From positions 1 through 26,288 of the IMG/VR virus record IMGVR_UViG_3300043410_000474: DNA of 26,288 nucleotides; one strand, 5' to 3'. Each line of letters starts with the position of its first letter. Position 1 is the stretch's first letter. Below are positions 9,183-25,087 of the stretch, one piece after another. A program made the translations under genes and the position numbers. The notes beneath the pieces were generated by a model. The model was not told where the DNA came from and searched no databases. It worked only from the letters and a program-made list of their open reading frames with translations. This DNA is from a virus.

Positions 9183-9803
9183 TCAGGGACGCTTATCAAT
9201 AACTTTATCAGCTAATCCGTAAGCTACTGCTTCTTCTGCACTGAGGAATGTGTCGAATTTCATGGATTCAAACATTTCATCGTACTTTTTACCAGCAGAA
9301 TTGTGCTTTACGTACAACTCTGTCAAACGCTTGTTCAAACGCTGACTTTCTTCAAAGCTACGTTTTGCGTCTTCAAACTGCAATTCCTGCACATGAACGC
9401 TACCACGGGTGCCAGGGGTACCTGAACTTACACGATGAATCATTGTGCGAGATTCTGGTAATACATACCTTTTACCTTTGGCTCCTGCCTGGGCCAGCAT
9501 AGAGCCCATGCTACAAGCCTGGCCCATAACAACAGTGCTAACATCAGGCCTAATAAACTGCATTGTGTCGTAGATAGCCAAGCCAGCAGTAACCAAGCCG
9601 CCAGGGCTATTAATAAACATTGTAATGTCTTCATTTCCTTGACTCTCCAGGAACAAGAGCTGTGCCACTAAAATGCTTGCACTATGTTCATTGACATCTT
9701 CGTCAAGCATAACAATGCGGTCTTTGAGCAAACGACTGTAAATGTCGTAAGCACGTTCTCCGCGAGCTTCAGTTTCAATAACTGTAGGGATTAACCGTGG
9801 CAT
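9183..9803 (-). CDS. clpP: ATP-dependent Clp protease proteolytic subunit
   Basis: A 206-residue ClpP with the full Ser-His-Asp triad: Ser98 in QACSMGSM, His123 in RTMIHR, and Asp184 in [11 protein letters not shown]. The SPGG oxyanion motif lies at residues 66-69. Length and layout match bacterial ClpP without a long propeptide. ClpP forms a tetradecameric chamber fed by ClpX or ClpA; no ATPase is encoded here, so it would borrow the host's, or serve phage maturation. It ends the lipoprotein operon and is followed by a hairpin. Confidence 0.95.
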
Positions 9804-16512: not shown

Positions 16513-16541
16513 ATTATATAGCCGTTTCAGCTCAATGTCAA
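16513..16541 (-). promoter_or_regulatory. Consensus sigma70 promoter for the tRNA-like gene
   Basis: TTGACA, 17 bases, TATAAT: a perfect match on the minus strand. The expected start (about 6-7 bases after the -10) falls on the first base of the RNA acceptor, so no 5' trimming would be needed. The -35 overlaps the stop codon of the kinase gene. It also drives 16374 through 14491, including IF-1. Confidence 0.9.
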
Positions 16542-17002
16542 GTGACATACCAGATTTCGGTGAAACCTTCGTCTTCAGTTGGCATATCGAAACGGTCAAT
16601 CATACTACGCATAACGTGATCTGGGATATTCTTACCTGGACGGCTTGCTAATCGACGTGCCAATTCTTCCTTTTCAGGAGTTTTGAACACTACTGCAATA
16701 TGCTCGTACTTTGGTAATGTGTTGAACTTGCGCTTACGTGAAGCAATAGTTGTAGAAGTTTGATCCCAGATTACATCCAAGTTGTTTGCTTGACAAATCA
16801 ATGCTTGGTTTGCCATCAATTTGACAGCAATTGGCATGTATTCGTCAAAAACTTCAGAGTAAGTCTTGCCCACACTTGCTGCGTGATCATCGACAAACTT
16901 GTCAGTAGAGACTACAGGAATATCCACAGCCCAGTCTTGGTTTTTAATCCAAGTGGACTTTCCGCTTCCTGGAACTCCAATTAATTGATAACACTTTGGC
17001 AT
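16538..17002 (-). CDS. Polynucleotide-kinase-like P-loop kinase (T4 PseT kinase-domain type)
   Basis: A 154-residue P-loop protein with Walker A GVPGSGKST at residues 9-17, STDKF at 32-36 (Asp34 in the place of the T4 Pnk general base), and DQTSTTIASRKRKFNTLP near 104-121, similar to the D-x-T-N...R...R block of T4 Pnk. It covers only the 5'-kinase domain; the 3'-phosphatase domain of T4 Pnk is missing. An Rnl1-like RNA ligase lies 0.9 kb upstream in the same operon, so a role in RNA (tRNA) repair is likely but inferred. It might also be another small-molecule kinase. Confidence 0.7.
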   Translation of the reverse strand: MPKCYQLIGVPGSGKSTWIKNQDWAVDIPVVSTDKFVDDHAASVGKTYSEVFDEYMPIAVKLMANQALICQANNLDVIWDQTSTTIASRKRKFNTLPKYEHIAVVFKTPEKEELARRLASRPGKNIPDHVMRSMIDRFDMPTEDEGFTEIWYVT

Positions 17003-17932: not shown

Positions 17933-18838
17933 TTAGGCCACCTCCATATAGTTACGTACCCAAGCTAGGCGAGCTTGCTCGTCCATAGCTGTGTATTCAA
18001 CAATGTTAGCACGGATAGCGTCTACTAGTGGATAGTATTCTTCATCCAAGTTGTGCTTAATGTCCTTGTTCAAGTCTACTAACTTATCTGTACGTGGATT
18101 GCGAGCAACCCACTTTGAAGTCAAGTAGTATGGCGACTTAATCTTAGCACTTACACCATCTTCTGTATAAAATACATAACCTTCATGCTTGCATTCCTTA
18201 GCTAATTGCTTTAGTCGGGCCATGTTAGTTGTTACACTTTCTGGCACGTGGCAATTAAGCGTGTTAGCCAAGTCCTTTAGCACAAATGGATCGTGGCCTA
18301 CTTTGCTACCAAACTCGTTTTCACGATAACCTAAAACATACATGCCAGCCTTTTCAGGAACAATGTGTGGATCTTCTGGATGAACACATTCAAACATTAC
18401 AGTTAAGCCACGCATATCGTTGTTAGCAAAAGCCATTTGCCAATCAGCCCAGGATTGATGTGTTAGCATCATTTCCTTAGCCATAGCAACGTATGGGCTA
18501 TCTGTAGAACCAGTAGTAGACACTAATACATCGCCATTGTACCAAGTACATGCCACCATGAAACCATTAACTTTACGAAAAGCAGTTACCTTAGTATCGT
18601 CGGATAGGACAGGTGCTTCCTTTTCAATTCCATAGTTGTAAATCTTTGTAAATGGGTATGCAACTAGGTTGAAATCTTCATCTACAATAGATCCACGACA
18701 TTCAGCGATGTATTCGTTCCACAAGTTATCATAGAACACTTTCTTCTTATACTTTAACACGTAGATACCGTCGCCGGCTTCCTTCATGTTAACTAGCTTA
18801 GAAGTTTGTACGTATTCCTTTAATTCATCCTTAAACAT
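17933..18838 (-). CDS. RNA ligase, T4 Rnl1-like
   Basis: A 301-residue nucleotidyl-transferase ligase. Motif I is KVNG at residues 89-92 (Lys89 takes the AMP). The preceding ECRGSIVDED...AYPFTKIYNYG is the usual Rnl1-type lead-in. Motif III-like VMFECVHPEDPHIV lies near 147-160, motif IV HEGYVFYTEDG at 218-228 and motif V AKIKSPYYL at 231-239. Such ligases reseal RNA, classically tRNAs cut in the anticodon loop by host defence nucleases. With the kinase at 16538 it could form a repair pair. It lacks any fused kinase or phosphatase. Confidence 0.85.
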   Translation of the reverse strand: MFKDELKEYVQTSKLVNMKEAGDGIYVLKYKKKVFYDNLWNEYIAECRGSIVDEDFNLVAYPFTKIYNYGIEKEAPVLSDDTKVTAFRKVNGFMVACTWYNGDVLVSTTGSTDSPYVAMAKEMMLTHQSWADWQMAFANNDMRGLTVMFECVHPEDPHIVPEKAGMYVLGYRENEFGSKVGHDPFVLKDLANTLNCHVPESVTTNMARLKQLAKECKHEGYVFYTEDGVSAKIKSPYYLTSKWVARNPRTDKLVDLNKDIKHNLDEEYYPLVDAIRANIVEYTAMDEQARLAWVRNYMEVA

Positions 18839-21541: not shown

Positions 21542-21801
21542 TCTGTAATCTCCACAAACTCTTGAATAAACAACTTAGCTTCAAGATTGCTTTGCATGTC
21601 TTCTAGGATCTGATCCATGCTTGGTGCATGACCAGGATTGCCACCCAAGTTACTGTGTTCTTTAAGGTCATCTGCGATGTCGGGGAAGTCATGAATAAAC
21701 CAATACCCAAGACGAATATTGGGGTTGCGGATACTGGCAAAGTCAAACTCTGCCAAGTATCTTTCCCATTCTTTACGTGTTAACGACAGTTTTAGTTCCA
21801 T
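21538..21801 (-). CDS. Small protein, unknown
   Basis: An 87-residue acidic protein (LTRKEWERYLAEFDFASIRN, HDFPDIADDLKEHSNLGGNP, MDQILEDMQSNLEAKLFIQE). The start lies 10 bases inside the release-factor 3' end. No motif recognised. Confidence 0.65.
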   Translation of the reverse strand: MELKLSLTRKEWERYLAEFDFASIRNPNIRLGYWFIHDFPDIADDLKEHSNLGGNPGHAPSMDQILEDMQSNLEAKLFIQEFVEITE

Positions 21802-22472
21802 AGTAATTCAAAGTTGCCCTTGAGTACAGTGTTACACTTGGCACGTTTACCAGTTAAATGATCCTGTACAGAATCATCCTGGAAACGATACGTGCGGATT
21901 TTATCCCCACGCATACCAGAGCCCACTTGCTCTCGGCGGTTAATAGATATGTTGGAATTATACTGCATAAGGGCTATGTTGTCAACCCTTTTCTGAATGT
22001 CTTGCATCGCTTCGTCGTAACTATTTTGACGACTGCGACATTGTGCAGTGGCAACAAGGCCAGATGGAATGTGAGTTATCCGACAAGAATTCTGATGCTT
22101 ATTGCGATGTTGACCGCCGGCACCAGTCCCGCTATACCACTCGACTTTTAAATCAGAATATGGTATAAGCACACCCGAAGATGCTTGTTCGCCGCTATCT
22201 ATGACAGCAACGGTAACGGTGCTAGTATGAACCCTTCCCTTCCGTTCAGTTGGAGGAACCCGTTGGATTCTATGACCACCACACTCGTTATTCAAGCCGG
22301 ATAAATCAGTACCCTCGACTAAGATATGAACTTCGCCAAGATACTCATTTATCAGGCGGCTAGTTCAGCCTTTACTTTGTGCAAATTTAATGTAGGCTTG
22401 TGCCAAATCTTTTACAAATAGTTTACTATCATCACCGCCTTCTGCGGCACGTATCTCAATCACTTTTTTCAT
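21792..22472 (-). CDS. RF1-type peptide chain release factor, frame interrupted by an in-frame TGA (codon 36)
   Basis: A class I release factor lacking the N-terminal domain 1. Reading from ATG 22472 (site GGAGG upstream), the first 35 codons (IEIRAAEGGDDSKLFVKDL...AQSKG) are canonical domain 2. Codon 36 is TGA (22365-22367), then the same frame continues for 190 codons with HRIQRVPPTERKGRVHTS, the GGQ loop GAGGQ at 117-121 and IRTYRF. PPT at 73-75 is the RF1-type PxT tripeptide (UAA/UAG). TGA falls where family members carry Trp (KG-W). Readthrough, recoding, mutation or sequencing error are all possible. Confidence 0.8.
22365..22367 (-). promoter_or_regulatory. In-frame TGA inside the release-factor gene (possible readthrough site)
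   Basis: GGC-TGA-ACT context. The codon before it is Gly and the family normally has Trp (TGG) here, so one G-to-A change would create the stop. Downstream translation could otherwise restart only at weak non-ATG codons such as TTG 22295. Confidence 0.5.
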
Positions 22473-22647
22473 GTGCTTTCCTCCAAAATTGTACTTCATT
22501 TAAAAATGGAACGAGTTGATCTAAAACCTTTGAGTCGAATCTTACTGTGTAATTATTGGCAGCAAAATTACGAAACTCAATAAAGTCACCATCATAAACG
22601 GCGGTCATATATTGAGACCCATCAGGTCTTACGATCTTTCGTTCCAT
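22456..22647 (-). CDS. Small protein, unknown
   Basis: A 63-residue protein with strand-like segments (YMTAVYDGDFIEFRNFAANN, YTVRFDSKVLDQLVPFLNEV), a small beta-rich fold. Its end overlaps the start of the release factor by 17 bases, so the two are coupled. Function unknown. Confidence 0.65.
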   Translation of the reverse strand: MERKIVRPDGSQYMTAVYDGDFIEFRNFAANNYTVRFDSKVLDQLVPFLNEVQFWRKAHEKSD

Positions 22648-23241: not shown

Positions 23242-23625
23242 TTAAAATAGGGGTAAATGTTTACAAATAGCATCAACCCGATCTTCACGATCAGGACCAA
23301 CTGCTACTGCTGTTAGTGTAGCAACACCGTGGAACTCTGTCAAGCCTGCATCTTTAATTAAACTACAAATTAATCCAGCATCTTTAGCTTTGTTGTAAAT
23401 TTCCAACAATTCTTCTTCTGTGTTTACATATACACAGATCTTTTTAAAACGACCAGTTAGCCAGGGAGCCATGCGCTCGTCGTTCAAATCCAAAACCAAC
23501 TTGTCACCGTCTTGTTTCGCTTGTCCAAGAATTGCACCCAAAGACGCATGTGCGCCCTGAGCAATATATTTGCCCTTACGCATTTCCTTAAACTTACGCA
23601 TTACAATTACTTGTTTGTGTTCCAT
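23242..23625 (-). CDS. Peptidyl-tRNA hydrolase, Pth2 (archaeal/eukaryotic type)
   Basis: A 127-residue Pth2-type enzyme that frees tRNA from peptidyl-tRNA that has dropped off ribosomes. The signature runs HKQVIVMRKFKEMRKGKYIAQGAHASLGAI (K-M-x-x-G-K-x-x-A-Q-x-x-H-A), then WLTGRFKKICVYV, and IKDAGLTEFHGVATLTAVAVGP (DAGxTE...T...GP). Bacteria normally use the unrelated Pth1. ATG 23625 is chosen over a GTG three codons upstream. It begins the long operon, downstream of the Ro-like gene's terminator. Confidence 0.88.
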   Translation of the reverse strand: MEHKQVIVMRKFKEMRKGKYIAQGAHASLGAILGQAKQDGDKLVLDLNDERMAPWLTGRFKKICVYVNTEEELLEIYNKAKDAGLICSLIKDAGLTEFHGVATLTAVAVGPDREDRVDAICKHLPLF

Positions 23626-23636
23626 AATTTTCACTC

Positions 23637-23671: not shown

Positions 23672-25087
23672 TTAGGCCAACTTGTAACGGTCAACCATAA
23701 CTGTTTTTCGCATGATGCCTTCTGGAGTGAATTCACTCATGTCAGCTTGCAACAATGCCTTCATGATGCTTGGGCTGAACCCTGACACCAATGCAGCACC
23801 GCTCTTATCTGCCTTAACAGGAACGTTGTCGCTACTGTTAATGTTCCAGAAAACAACTTGTGGGACAGTGTAACCTGCCGCAACATACTTGCGTTCGATC
23901 ATCTGCATTGCAGAGTCGTTGTGTTCAACGCAACCGTTGAACTGCATGTCACTCAAGATCAACAGCATCTCTGGCATTTCTGCTTGAGGTACGTTGCCCT
24001 TGACCGCAACATCAAGAATCTTCTCAAATGCTGCGTGGAGGTTGGTACTCATTCCCCACTTGCTACGAACCATTTGGTCCATCTTTTCAACAATGTTACC
24101 CTTTAGGGTCAACAGTTCTGGAGATGAACTGAAAGTTAGGAACGTGTCCTTGAACTTACCTTGGTTCTTTTCAGCCAAGTACAAGCCTAGGCTGACCGCA
24201 ACATCCATACAAGTTGTGGTGCTCTTTCCACCTGCTGGGCAGCACATGGAACCGCTAACGTCAACCAATGGAAGAATGTTAGCATCACCAACAAAGTTTG
24301 GCAAAGCATTCCATTGAGCCACAATGTGGTCAAGTTCTGTCTTACCATAGTTGTTGCTGTAAGAGTTGATACCCTTCAACACGTCATATGGGTAAACTGC
24401 TGCGGCGTTAACCTTAACAGTTGGGTCTTCACCCTTTACCAATGCTGCAACATACTCAGCGAACTTTGTAGTGTTGCGGTTGAATGCCTTCTTGTAACGT
24501 GCGCTAGCAACGCTAGGTACGTGACTGAAGTTGATGCTGTCCCAATCTTGGGCACACATCTGAGTTTCAACAACATTTGTAAGAGCAACAAGGCTCTTAC
24601 GATACTGCTTTGGAGTCATTCCAAAGAACTCGCGAACTTCACGAGCAACTTGACCCTTACGAGGAGTCCACTTTGCTGCCAAGCCGTTTGATGCACGGAG
24701 TGCGTCACCCAACATGGTGTAAGCGGCCTTCTTCATTTCGGGGGTCTGGAAGACAAAAATGTCATCCCAGCGGCCAAGTTCAGGTACCTTAGCCAACATA
24801 GCCTTAGCTGTGTCAACGTCGGTTTTTTCTAGATGAACTAGAATGTCACGGAAGAGTTGGCGTTCACCAGCACCACCGCGAGCATCACGTGCCCAAAGGG
24901 CAACACGCAATGCCAAGTCCTTGTCTTCCACATAAGCTGCGGTGAAGGCAGGGACGATATCTTTGCCACGGCTTGCGCCGATGTTGTAAAACAAGTCAAC
25001 AACCTTGCTAGCGGTTGACTTACGTGCCTTCATACCATTGGTAGTAAGGGCTTCTTGATTTGCTACTGCGTTTACAAAAGTGTTCAT
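23672..25087 (-). CDS. Ro60/TROVE-like protein with vWA domain (DUF2828-type)
   Basis: A 471-residue protein. The first ~265 residues are helical repeats with DUF2828/TROVE-style blocks (ARDARGGAGERQLFRDIL at 67-83, VPELGRWDDIF at 101-111, KWTPRKGQ at 139-146). The C-terminal von Willebrand A domain has a full MIDAS: DVSGS at 276-280, T348 in GMSTNL, and D380 in ILSDMQ. Ro proteins are RNA chaperones: the helical ring binds misfolded RNA and Y RNA. This gene follows a 1.2 kb structured RNA region with tRNA mimics, supporting RNA binding. Start has GAGGA eight bases upstream. Confidence 0.75.
   Translation of the reverse strand: MNTFVNAVANQEALTTNGMKARKSTASKVVDLFYNIGASRGKDIVPAFTAAYVEDKDLALRVALWARDARGGAGERQLFRDILVHLEKTDVDTAKAMLAKVPELGRWDDIFVFQTPEMKKAAYTMLGDALRASNGLAAKWTPRKGQVAREVREFFGMTPKQYRKSLVALTNVVETQMCAQDWDSINFSHVPSVASARYKKAFNRNTTKFAEYVAALVKGEDPTVKVNAAAVYPYDVLKGINSYSNNYGKTELDHIVAQWNALPNFVGDANILPLVDVSGSMCCPAGGKSTTTCMDVAVSLGLYLAEKNQGKFKDTFLTFSSSPELLTLKGNIVEKMDQMVRSKWGMSTNLHAAFEKILDVAVKGNVPQAEMPEMLLILSDMQFNGCVEHNDSAMQMIERKYVAAGYTVPQVVFWNINSSDNVPVKADKSGAALVSGFSPSIMKALLQADMSEFTPEGIMRKTVMVDRYKLA

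Follow-up and report, generated by a model that had tools for sequence, protein, structure and literature searches.

A phage gene for an RF1-type release factor with a conserved in-frame UGA, probably controlled by programmed readthrough

Is the in-frame TGA that interrupts a release-factor gene in this viral DNA an accident of mutation or sequencing, or a programmed element on which synthesis of the protein depends? The window, i.e. the whole stretch of DNA analysed, is a 26,288-base viral record, an IMG/VR phage fragment. Its minus strand, translated from 22472 to 21792, reads MKKVIEIRAAEGGDDSKLFVKDLAQAYIKFAQSKG up to the TGA and TSRLINEYLGEV...NFELLWN from there to the final stop. The TGA is the sole break in the frame; counted as one residue, it gives a protein of 226 residues. 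The original prediction had described a release-factor frame split by TGA at codon 36 and preceded by a strong start site, and both points are borne out by the layout of the gene:

21792 to 22472, minus strand: the whole release-factor gene, with its ATG at 22472-22470, the internal TGA and a final TAA at 21794-21792
22480 to 22484, minus strand: ribosome-binding site GGAGG, read directly, 7 nt 5' of the ATG
22368 to 22472, minus strand: ORF1, 35 codons, covering the first strand and helix of domain 2; the product of normal termination; dN/dS 0.118
22365 to 22367, minus strand: internal TGA, codon 36, at the Trp position of RF1 and conserved in the family; the +4 base is A
21795 to 22364, minus strand: ORF2, in the frame of ORF1, with the remainder of domain 2, the PPT recognition loop, GGQ and the C-terminal part; dN/dS 0.113
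22339 to 22357, minus strand: 5' arm of a conserved stem, beginning 7 nt 3' of the UGA
22296 to 22314, minus strand: 3' arm of the conserved stem, partner of 22339 to 22357

With its TGA taken as Trp, the protein aligns from residue 2 to residue 219 with the RF1 of T. maritima (PDB 2fvo, E 1.2e-40), and the TGA lies opposite the Trp of 'ERKGWNLEV'. Membership of the RF1-type class-I superfamily is supported by a match to PF00472 over the cut-off, by conserved GGQ and PPT motifs and by RF1 structures as best matches. Profile scores are highest for RF1 (195.7 bits), followed by RF2 (116) and PrfH (37), all below the full-length cut-offs. The protein fails as an RF1 (prfA) equivalog (195.7 bits for a curated TIGR00019 cut-off of 423, the match starting at profile position 115): domains 2-4, GGQ, PxT and the recognition residues are common to both, whereas the window factor begins at domain 2, lacks domain 1, has only 226 residues and carries the internal UGA. 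It fails likewise as a PrfH, the RtcB-associated accessory factor of similar length which also lacks domain 1 (TIGR03072, 37.4 bits for a cut-off of 166.65), and differs from it in retaining the PxT loop. The stop-recognition residues PPT, Gln, His and Thr are those of RF1, and they are RF1-like in both clades of the family described below; the RF1 type originally read from the PxT tripeptide thus holds, and these residues point to UAA and UAG as the stops that the factor would read. The GG-x-E motif of domain 2 has Asp in place of the Glu of RF1 and RF2. RF1 structures are also the best matches (E 1e-17) of an AlphaFold model (mean pLDDT 78, pTM 0.59), which places residue 36 at the turn that links the first helix to the next strand.

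The state of codon 36 was analyzed in viral relatives. The query was the part of the protein after the TGA only, which cannot favour either codon state. There were 253 viral relatives, and the best 80 of them, 66-89% identical, were examined: the codon is TGA in all 78 loci that reach it, and never TGG. Further members, retrieved with a DNA pattern preceding the TGA and with a profile of divergent members, again have TGA at the same codon, and it persists even in members whose following residues are unrelated. In a single viral locus (L180) the codon is TGG, and an in-frame TGA follows two codons later; among the viral loci retrieved, no relative with TGG and no nearby stop was found. The presence of TGA in close as well as in far more divergent relatives excludes chance or error. 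Moreover, TGG is only one A-to-G change away and is never found alone in phage members, which argues that the stop itself is selected; the absence of TGG-only phage members would be hard to explain otherwise. Each scan was limited to the best 80 loci and may miss the most divergent members. The loci are partly redundant or related, and clustering reduces this redundancy without removing it. None of the GenBank phage records listed exceeds about 41% identity to the window protein, so the phage members are known here from metagenomes only.

Selection acts on both ORFs, as seen from a median dN/dS of 0.118 before the UGA and 0.113 after it. Codon choice is unusually uniform right after the UGA (ATA in 70 of 70, CGC in 67 of 71). 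Excess homozygosity reaches 0.46-0.49 in this region, with a second peak of 0.36 at the 3' arm of the stem and values mostly of 0.05-0.25 elsewhere. RNAalifold, applied to 32 sequences, gave a long covarying stem which pairs columns 25-38 with 63-76. Its cells are paired at 93.3%, compared with 33-45% when the stem is slid, and 30 cells are double-changed, compared with 9.2 in shuffles; some of the changes are common to subclades, and the double-changed cells are not all independent events. The extended stem has 17 pairs, with 92.5% of its cells paired. Over 70 clusters, the mean fold z of the 75 nt following the UGA is -2.69 relative to shuffles that keep both protein and codon usage; in a sample of 40 clusters it is -2.65, compared with -0.16 to -0.86 elsewhere in the gene. 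The window's own fold has -27.3 kcal/mol (z -3.35). Divergent phages have hairpins of unrelated sequence in the same place, and the outer stem begins exactly 7 nt after the UGA in 19 clusters. No Rfam family matches the stem-loop. A short hairpin noticed by eye (CGCC-U-GAUA/UAUC-UU-GGCG) is probably not the conserved structure, RNAalifold having given the longer covarying stem. A conserved in-frame stop, coding selection on its two sides and a conserved putative stimulatory element together satisfy the comparative test for programmed readthrough, without data on the product, and the view that the full-length protein needs UGA readthrough gains support.

The +4 base in the 70 readthrough clusters is A in 51, G in 12, C in 7 and never T; +4U is associated with reduced readthrough (PMC5289835). 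Of the long ORFs of four large relatives, 32-41% end in TGA and few in TAG, so UGA serves as a normal stop codon there. A tRNA with anticodon UCA, i.e. tRNA-Trp(UCA), was not found in the loci and genomes searched. In a scan of called genes and stops present in both genomes, no gene other than the release factor was found to have an in-frame stop that is conserved in each of the four large relatives. By their appearance, the remaining single hits would be antisense frames or adjacent genes. The view formed from the window alone, that full UGA recoding is unlikely, is thus supported: the checks proposed with it gave no tRNA-Trp(UCA) and no other conserved in-frame TGA in sense genes of the genomes compared. 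As for the residue inserted, Trp is likely, judging by the Trp of RF1 at this site and by the TGG found at the usual codon in two members of the phage/alphaproteobacterial clade whose stop has moved (L180 and L263). The Hirsh suppressor nucleotide A24 is present in 18 of 20 different phage tRNA-Trp(CCA) from related loci (e.g. L047:390-463), and 39% of the other tRNAs of the same loci have A at position 24; no base rate from ordinary tRNA-Trp genes enters this comparison. A published description has G24A facilitating the readthrough of UGA (PMC13092985).

The family is not restricted to phages. A scan of 84,980 prokaryote genomes yielded 35 family loci, and the overall tally is 217 loci in 105 clusters at 90% identity, distributed as follows: 85 with UGA readthrough, 18 with +1 frameshift, all bacterial, and two with neither. 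An in-frame TGA stands at the same codon in Jiella, Thalassospira, Rhodovibrio and two alphaproteobacterial MAGs, and about ten codons later in Variovorax and another MAG. In Myxococcota (Nannocystis, Minicystis and others), Achromobacter and a few more, ORF2 is in the +1 frame at CTT-TGA-C/G; the frameshift site is CTT-TAG-C in two lineages (L263 and L269). Shine-Dalgarno-like pairing upstream, with the anti-SD at -5 kcal/mol or better, characterizes 16 of 18 frameshift sites as against 2 of 70 readthrough sites. The test for a prfB-type +1 frameshift is passed in Myxococcota and some other bacterial relatives, and fails for the window and all the phage members found, where ORF2 is in the same frame. 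Three related copies in one Myxococcales MAG (nzgw250; L276, L280, L282) have no internal stop and Tyr at the site; they are natural controls in which the gate was lost or never present. The N- and C-terminal frames of L277 and L291 fit neither simple readthrough nor a single-site +1 shift, owing to an assembly error or to another event. The carrier genomes that were viewed closely also encode ordinary RF1 and RF2, most of their prfB having the usual frameshift site. In samples of the phyla or classes of two bacterial carriers, the matches listed besides the carrier itself were canonical RF1; the family is thus sporadic in bacteria.

In a tree including canonical RF1, RF2 and other phage release factors, the family forms one side of a branch whose support, 96/68, is not strong. 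The phage/alphaproteobacterial clade has 70 rows (69 readthrough plus L263), and the myxobacterial/betaproteobacterial clade 20 (17 frameshift, 2 readthrough, 1 with none). At least four changes between readthrough and frameshift are required on this tree of 39 substitutions per column, 24.9 of which are spanned by the phage/alphaproteobacterial clade alone.

These distributions bear on the explanations that would dispense with programmed readthrough. A mutation, pseudogene or sequencing error was put forward originally as the main alternative, and a single TGG to TGA change would indeed suffice; with TGA in 78 of 78 reaching relatives and throughout the family, and a dN/dS of 0.11 past the stop, it is refuted. 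General reading of UGA as Trp by the phage or its host (code 4) would account for a UGA at a Trp position, and is just as negligible: the use of TGA as a stop in four large relatives, the lack of a suppressor tRNA-Trp(UCA) in the loci and genomes searched and the absence of other conserved in-frame TGA in sense genes all contradict it. Insertion of selenocysteine is brought to mind by a UGA followed by a stem-loop, as in bacterial SECIS elements. These elements are short, unlike the present stem, which has about 17 pairs and a loop of some 24 nt; the site is moreover a Trp of RF1 and reads TGG in members whose stop has moved. The selenoprotein test fails in addition for want of a Rfam SECIS match and of SelB, for which four large relatives gave no hit and three bacteria with the readthrough form none over the cut-off, and we hold this explanation to be very improbable. 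Scarcely better placed are a ribosomal hop across the UGA, whose product would lack residue 36, and re-initiation past it, which would leave out ORF1. The downstream frame is unchanged, as it would be after a 3-nt hop, and an in-frame TTG exists at 22295; however, the take-off and landing codons do not match (GGN UGA ACN/GCN), and ORF1, which supplies domain 2 with its first strand and helix, is selected as strongly as the rest.

The reading that we favour, with a probability of roughly 0.7, is that of an accessory RF1-type factor of a large phage, whose synthesis would be gated by programmed readthrough at UGA-36, stimulated by the stem and responsive to RF2. It is built on comparisons (UGA conservation, two-sided selection, conserved RNA structure, interchange with prfB-like cassettes, TAA stops), and no expression, ribosome-profiling or peptide data support it. 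Termination at the UGA would release a 35-residue peptide without the catalytic part; readthrough, an inferred event in which tRNA-Trp most likely takes part, would give the full factor, Trp being itself an inferred residue, and the stem-loop about 7 nt past the UGA is inferred to stimulate it. Termination at UGA requires RF2, so a limiting supply of RF2 should favour readthrough. Competition between readthrough and RF2 would raise output when UGA termination is limiting and lower it when it is sufficient, i.e. a homeostatic valve akin to prfB control, with readthrough replacing +1 frameshifting; RF2 as the variable sensed and induction at low RF2 are both inferences. With a recognition motif of RF1 type, the factor is not expected to read UGA, and feedback would be indirect: by taking over UAA, one of the stops it is inferred to read, it may free RF2 for UGA and so relieve the shortage. 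The final stops of the family are TAA in 81 of 89 clusters, including those of the G+C-rich Myxococcota, TGA in 5 and TAG in 3, compared with TGA in 10 of 14 RF1 and RF2 genes from the bacteria that carry the family. A TAA end fits a gene that has to be completed when UGA termination is poor; other reasons for TAA are possible.

The indirect circuit is the simplest inference, and a direct loop remains possible, in which the factor would terminate at UGA despite its PPT, through an RF2-like or broad specificity, and close the loop by its own activity as prfB does. That the internal stop is UGA in nearly all members, that frameshift members use the prfB-type cassette CTT-TGA and that Glu is replaced by Asp in GG-x-E make such autoregulation conceivable; it is nonetheless the less probable course, because every RF1 stop-recognition residue is present, the CTT-TAG sites of L263 and L269 would not be sensed by an RF2-type reader, and the dominance of UGA may reflect only its being the leakiest stop. 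Somewhat more doubtful still is an unregulated leak, where the UGA would merely fix a low output of a factor harmful in excess, without any sensing of RF2. A set readthrough ratio could be obtained from the stem-loop, and overexpression of release factors lowers fitness in B. subtilis (PMC12421855), but a weak start site would be a simpler means, yet GGAGG is strong, and a stop codon in both recoding modes together with TAA final stops fits a sensor better.

The proposed RF2-responsive readthrough in an RF1-type factor can be set beside two known systems. Like the prfB frameshift (PMC5009743, PMC12421855), it concerns a class-I release factor whose full length requires bypass of an early UGA, and the likeness extends, mostly in Myxococcota, to members with CTT-TGA-C/G and an upstream Shine-Dalgarno-like sequence. 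It differs in that the window factor is RF1-type and devoid of domain 1, with its recoding site in domain 2, and in that phage and alphaproteobacterial members have ORF2 in the same frame and a downstream stem-loop instead of the upstream SD. Mimivirus R726 and Megavirus mg280 are also viral class-I release factors that need UGA readthrough, where Trp is thought to be inserted (viral tRNA-Trp with a Hirsh-like adenine), in addition to a frameshift (PMC3521657); unlike the present family they are of eRF1/aRF1 type, unrelated in sequence to RF1, are translated by eukaryotic ribosomes and combine both events in one gene. Control of RF2 by an early in-frame UGA read through at low RF2 was imagined before sequencing and found in no bacterium (PMC5009743). 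The same 2016 review reports no RF2 gene with an early in-frame UGA and a same-frame ORF2, no known RF1/UAG counterpart and no known organism in which readthrough replaces regulatory RF2 frameshifting, the Mimivirus gene being cited as an example from giant viruses where both occur. In prfA, for which programmed recoding is not known, a 2025 survey of prfB saw no compelling case of a programmed frameshift (PMC12421855). In the open-licence PMC literature we found no description of an accessory release factor with recoding. We consider it quite probable that this is a new family of accessory release factors, widespread in large phages and sporadic in bacteria, controlled almost always by recoding, with repeated swaps between readthrough and +1 frameshifting. 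No earlier release-factor system of bacterial type would then have readthrough in place of autoregulatory frameshifting. If so, the family would supply the missing readthrough design, in phages and some chromosomes, and both solutions within one protein family make their evolutionary exchange directly open to study. It would also be a case of structure-stimulated UGA readthrough on bacterial ribosomes other than selenocysteine insertion, and hints that large phages track translation termination and tune it in the course of infection.

The neighbours of the gene in the window include a tRNA-Cys and four protein genes:

23242 to 23634: peptidyl-tRNA hydrolase PTH2
17933 to 18838: T4-type RNA ligase
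16538 to 17002: AAA_33 kinase
9183 to 9803: ClpP

The four proteins constitute a set for RNA and for translation and protein maintenance. In several large relatives the release-factor gene lies within or beside clusters of 13-35 tRNA genes. Among tRNA genes of relatives G001, G002 and G004, we observed some with the amber anticodon CUA (L100:3408-3482, L117:19529-19603 and L141:7515-7589); TAG is a rare stop in these genomes and no in-frame TAG is conserved in genes. G001, G002, G004 and G006 each have a predicted tmRNA gene, with tags such as ANDSVFALAA. The window also encodes, at 23672-25087, a protein matching DUF7788 and DUF2828 which looks TROVE/vWA-type. A different phage RF1-like gene (HRVQRCPPTE) is present in L179, a 476 kb record (minus strand near L179:12980), and in L190, a 296 kb record. 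Its N-terminal frame ends in CTT-TAG-C and the rest lies in the +1 frame, possibly a prfB-like frameshift at the RF1-specific stop UAG.
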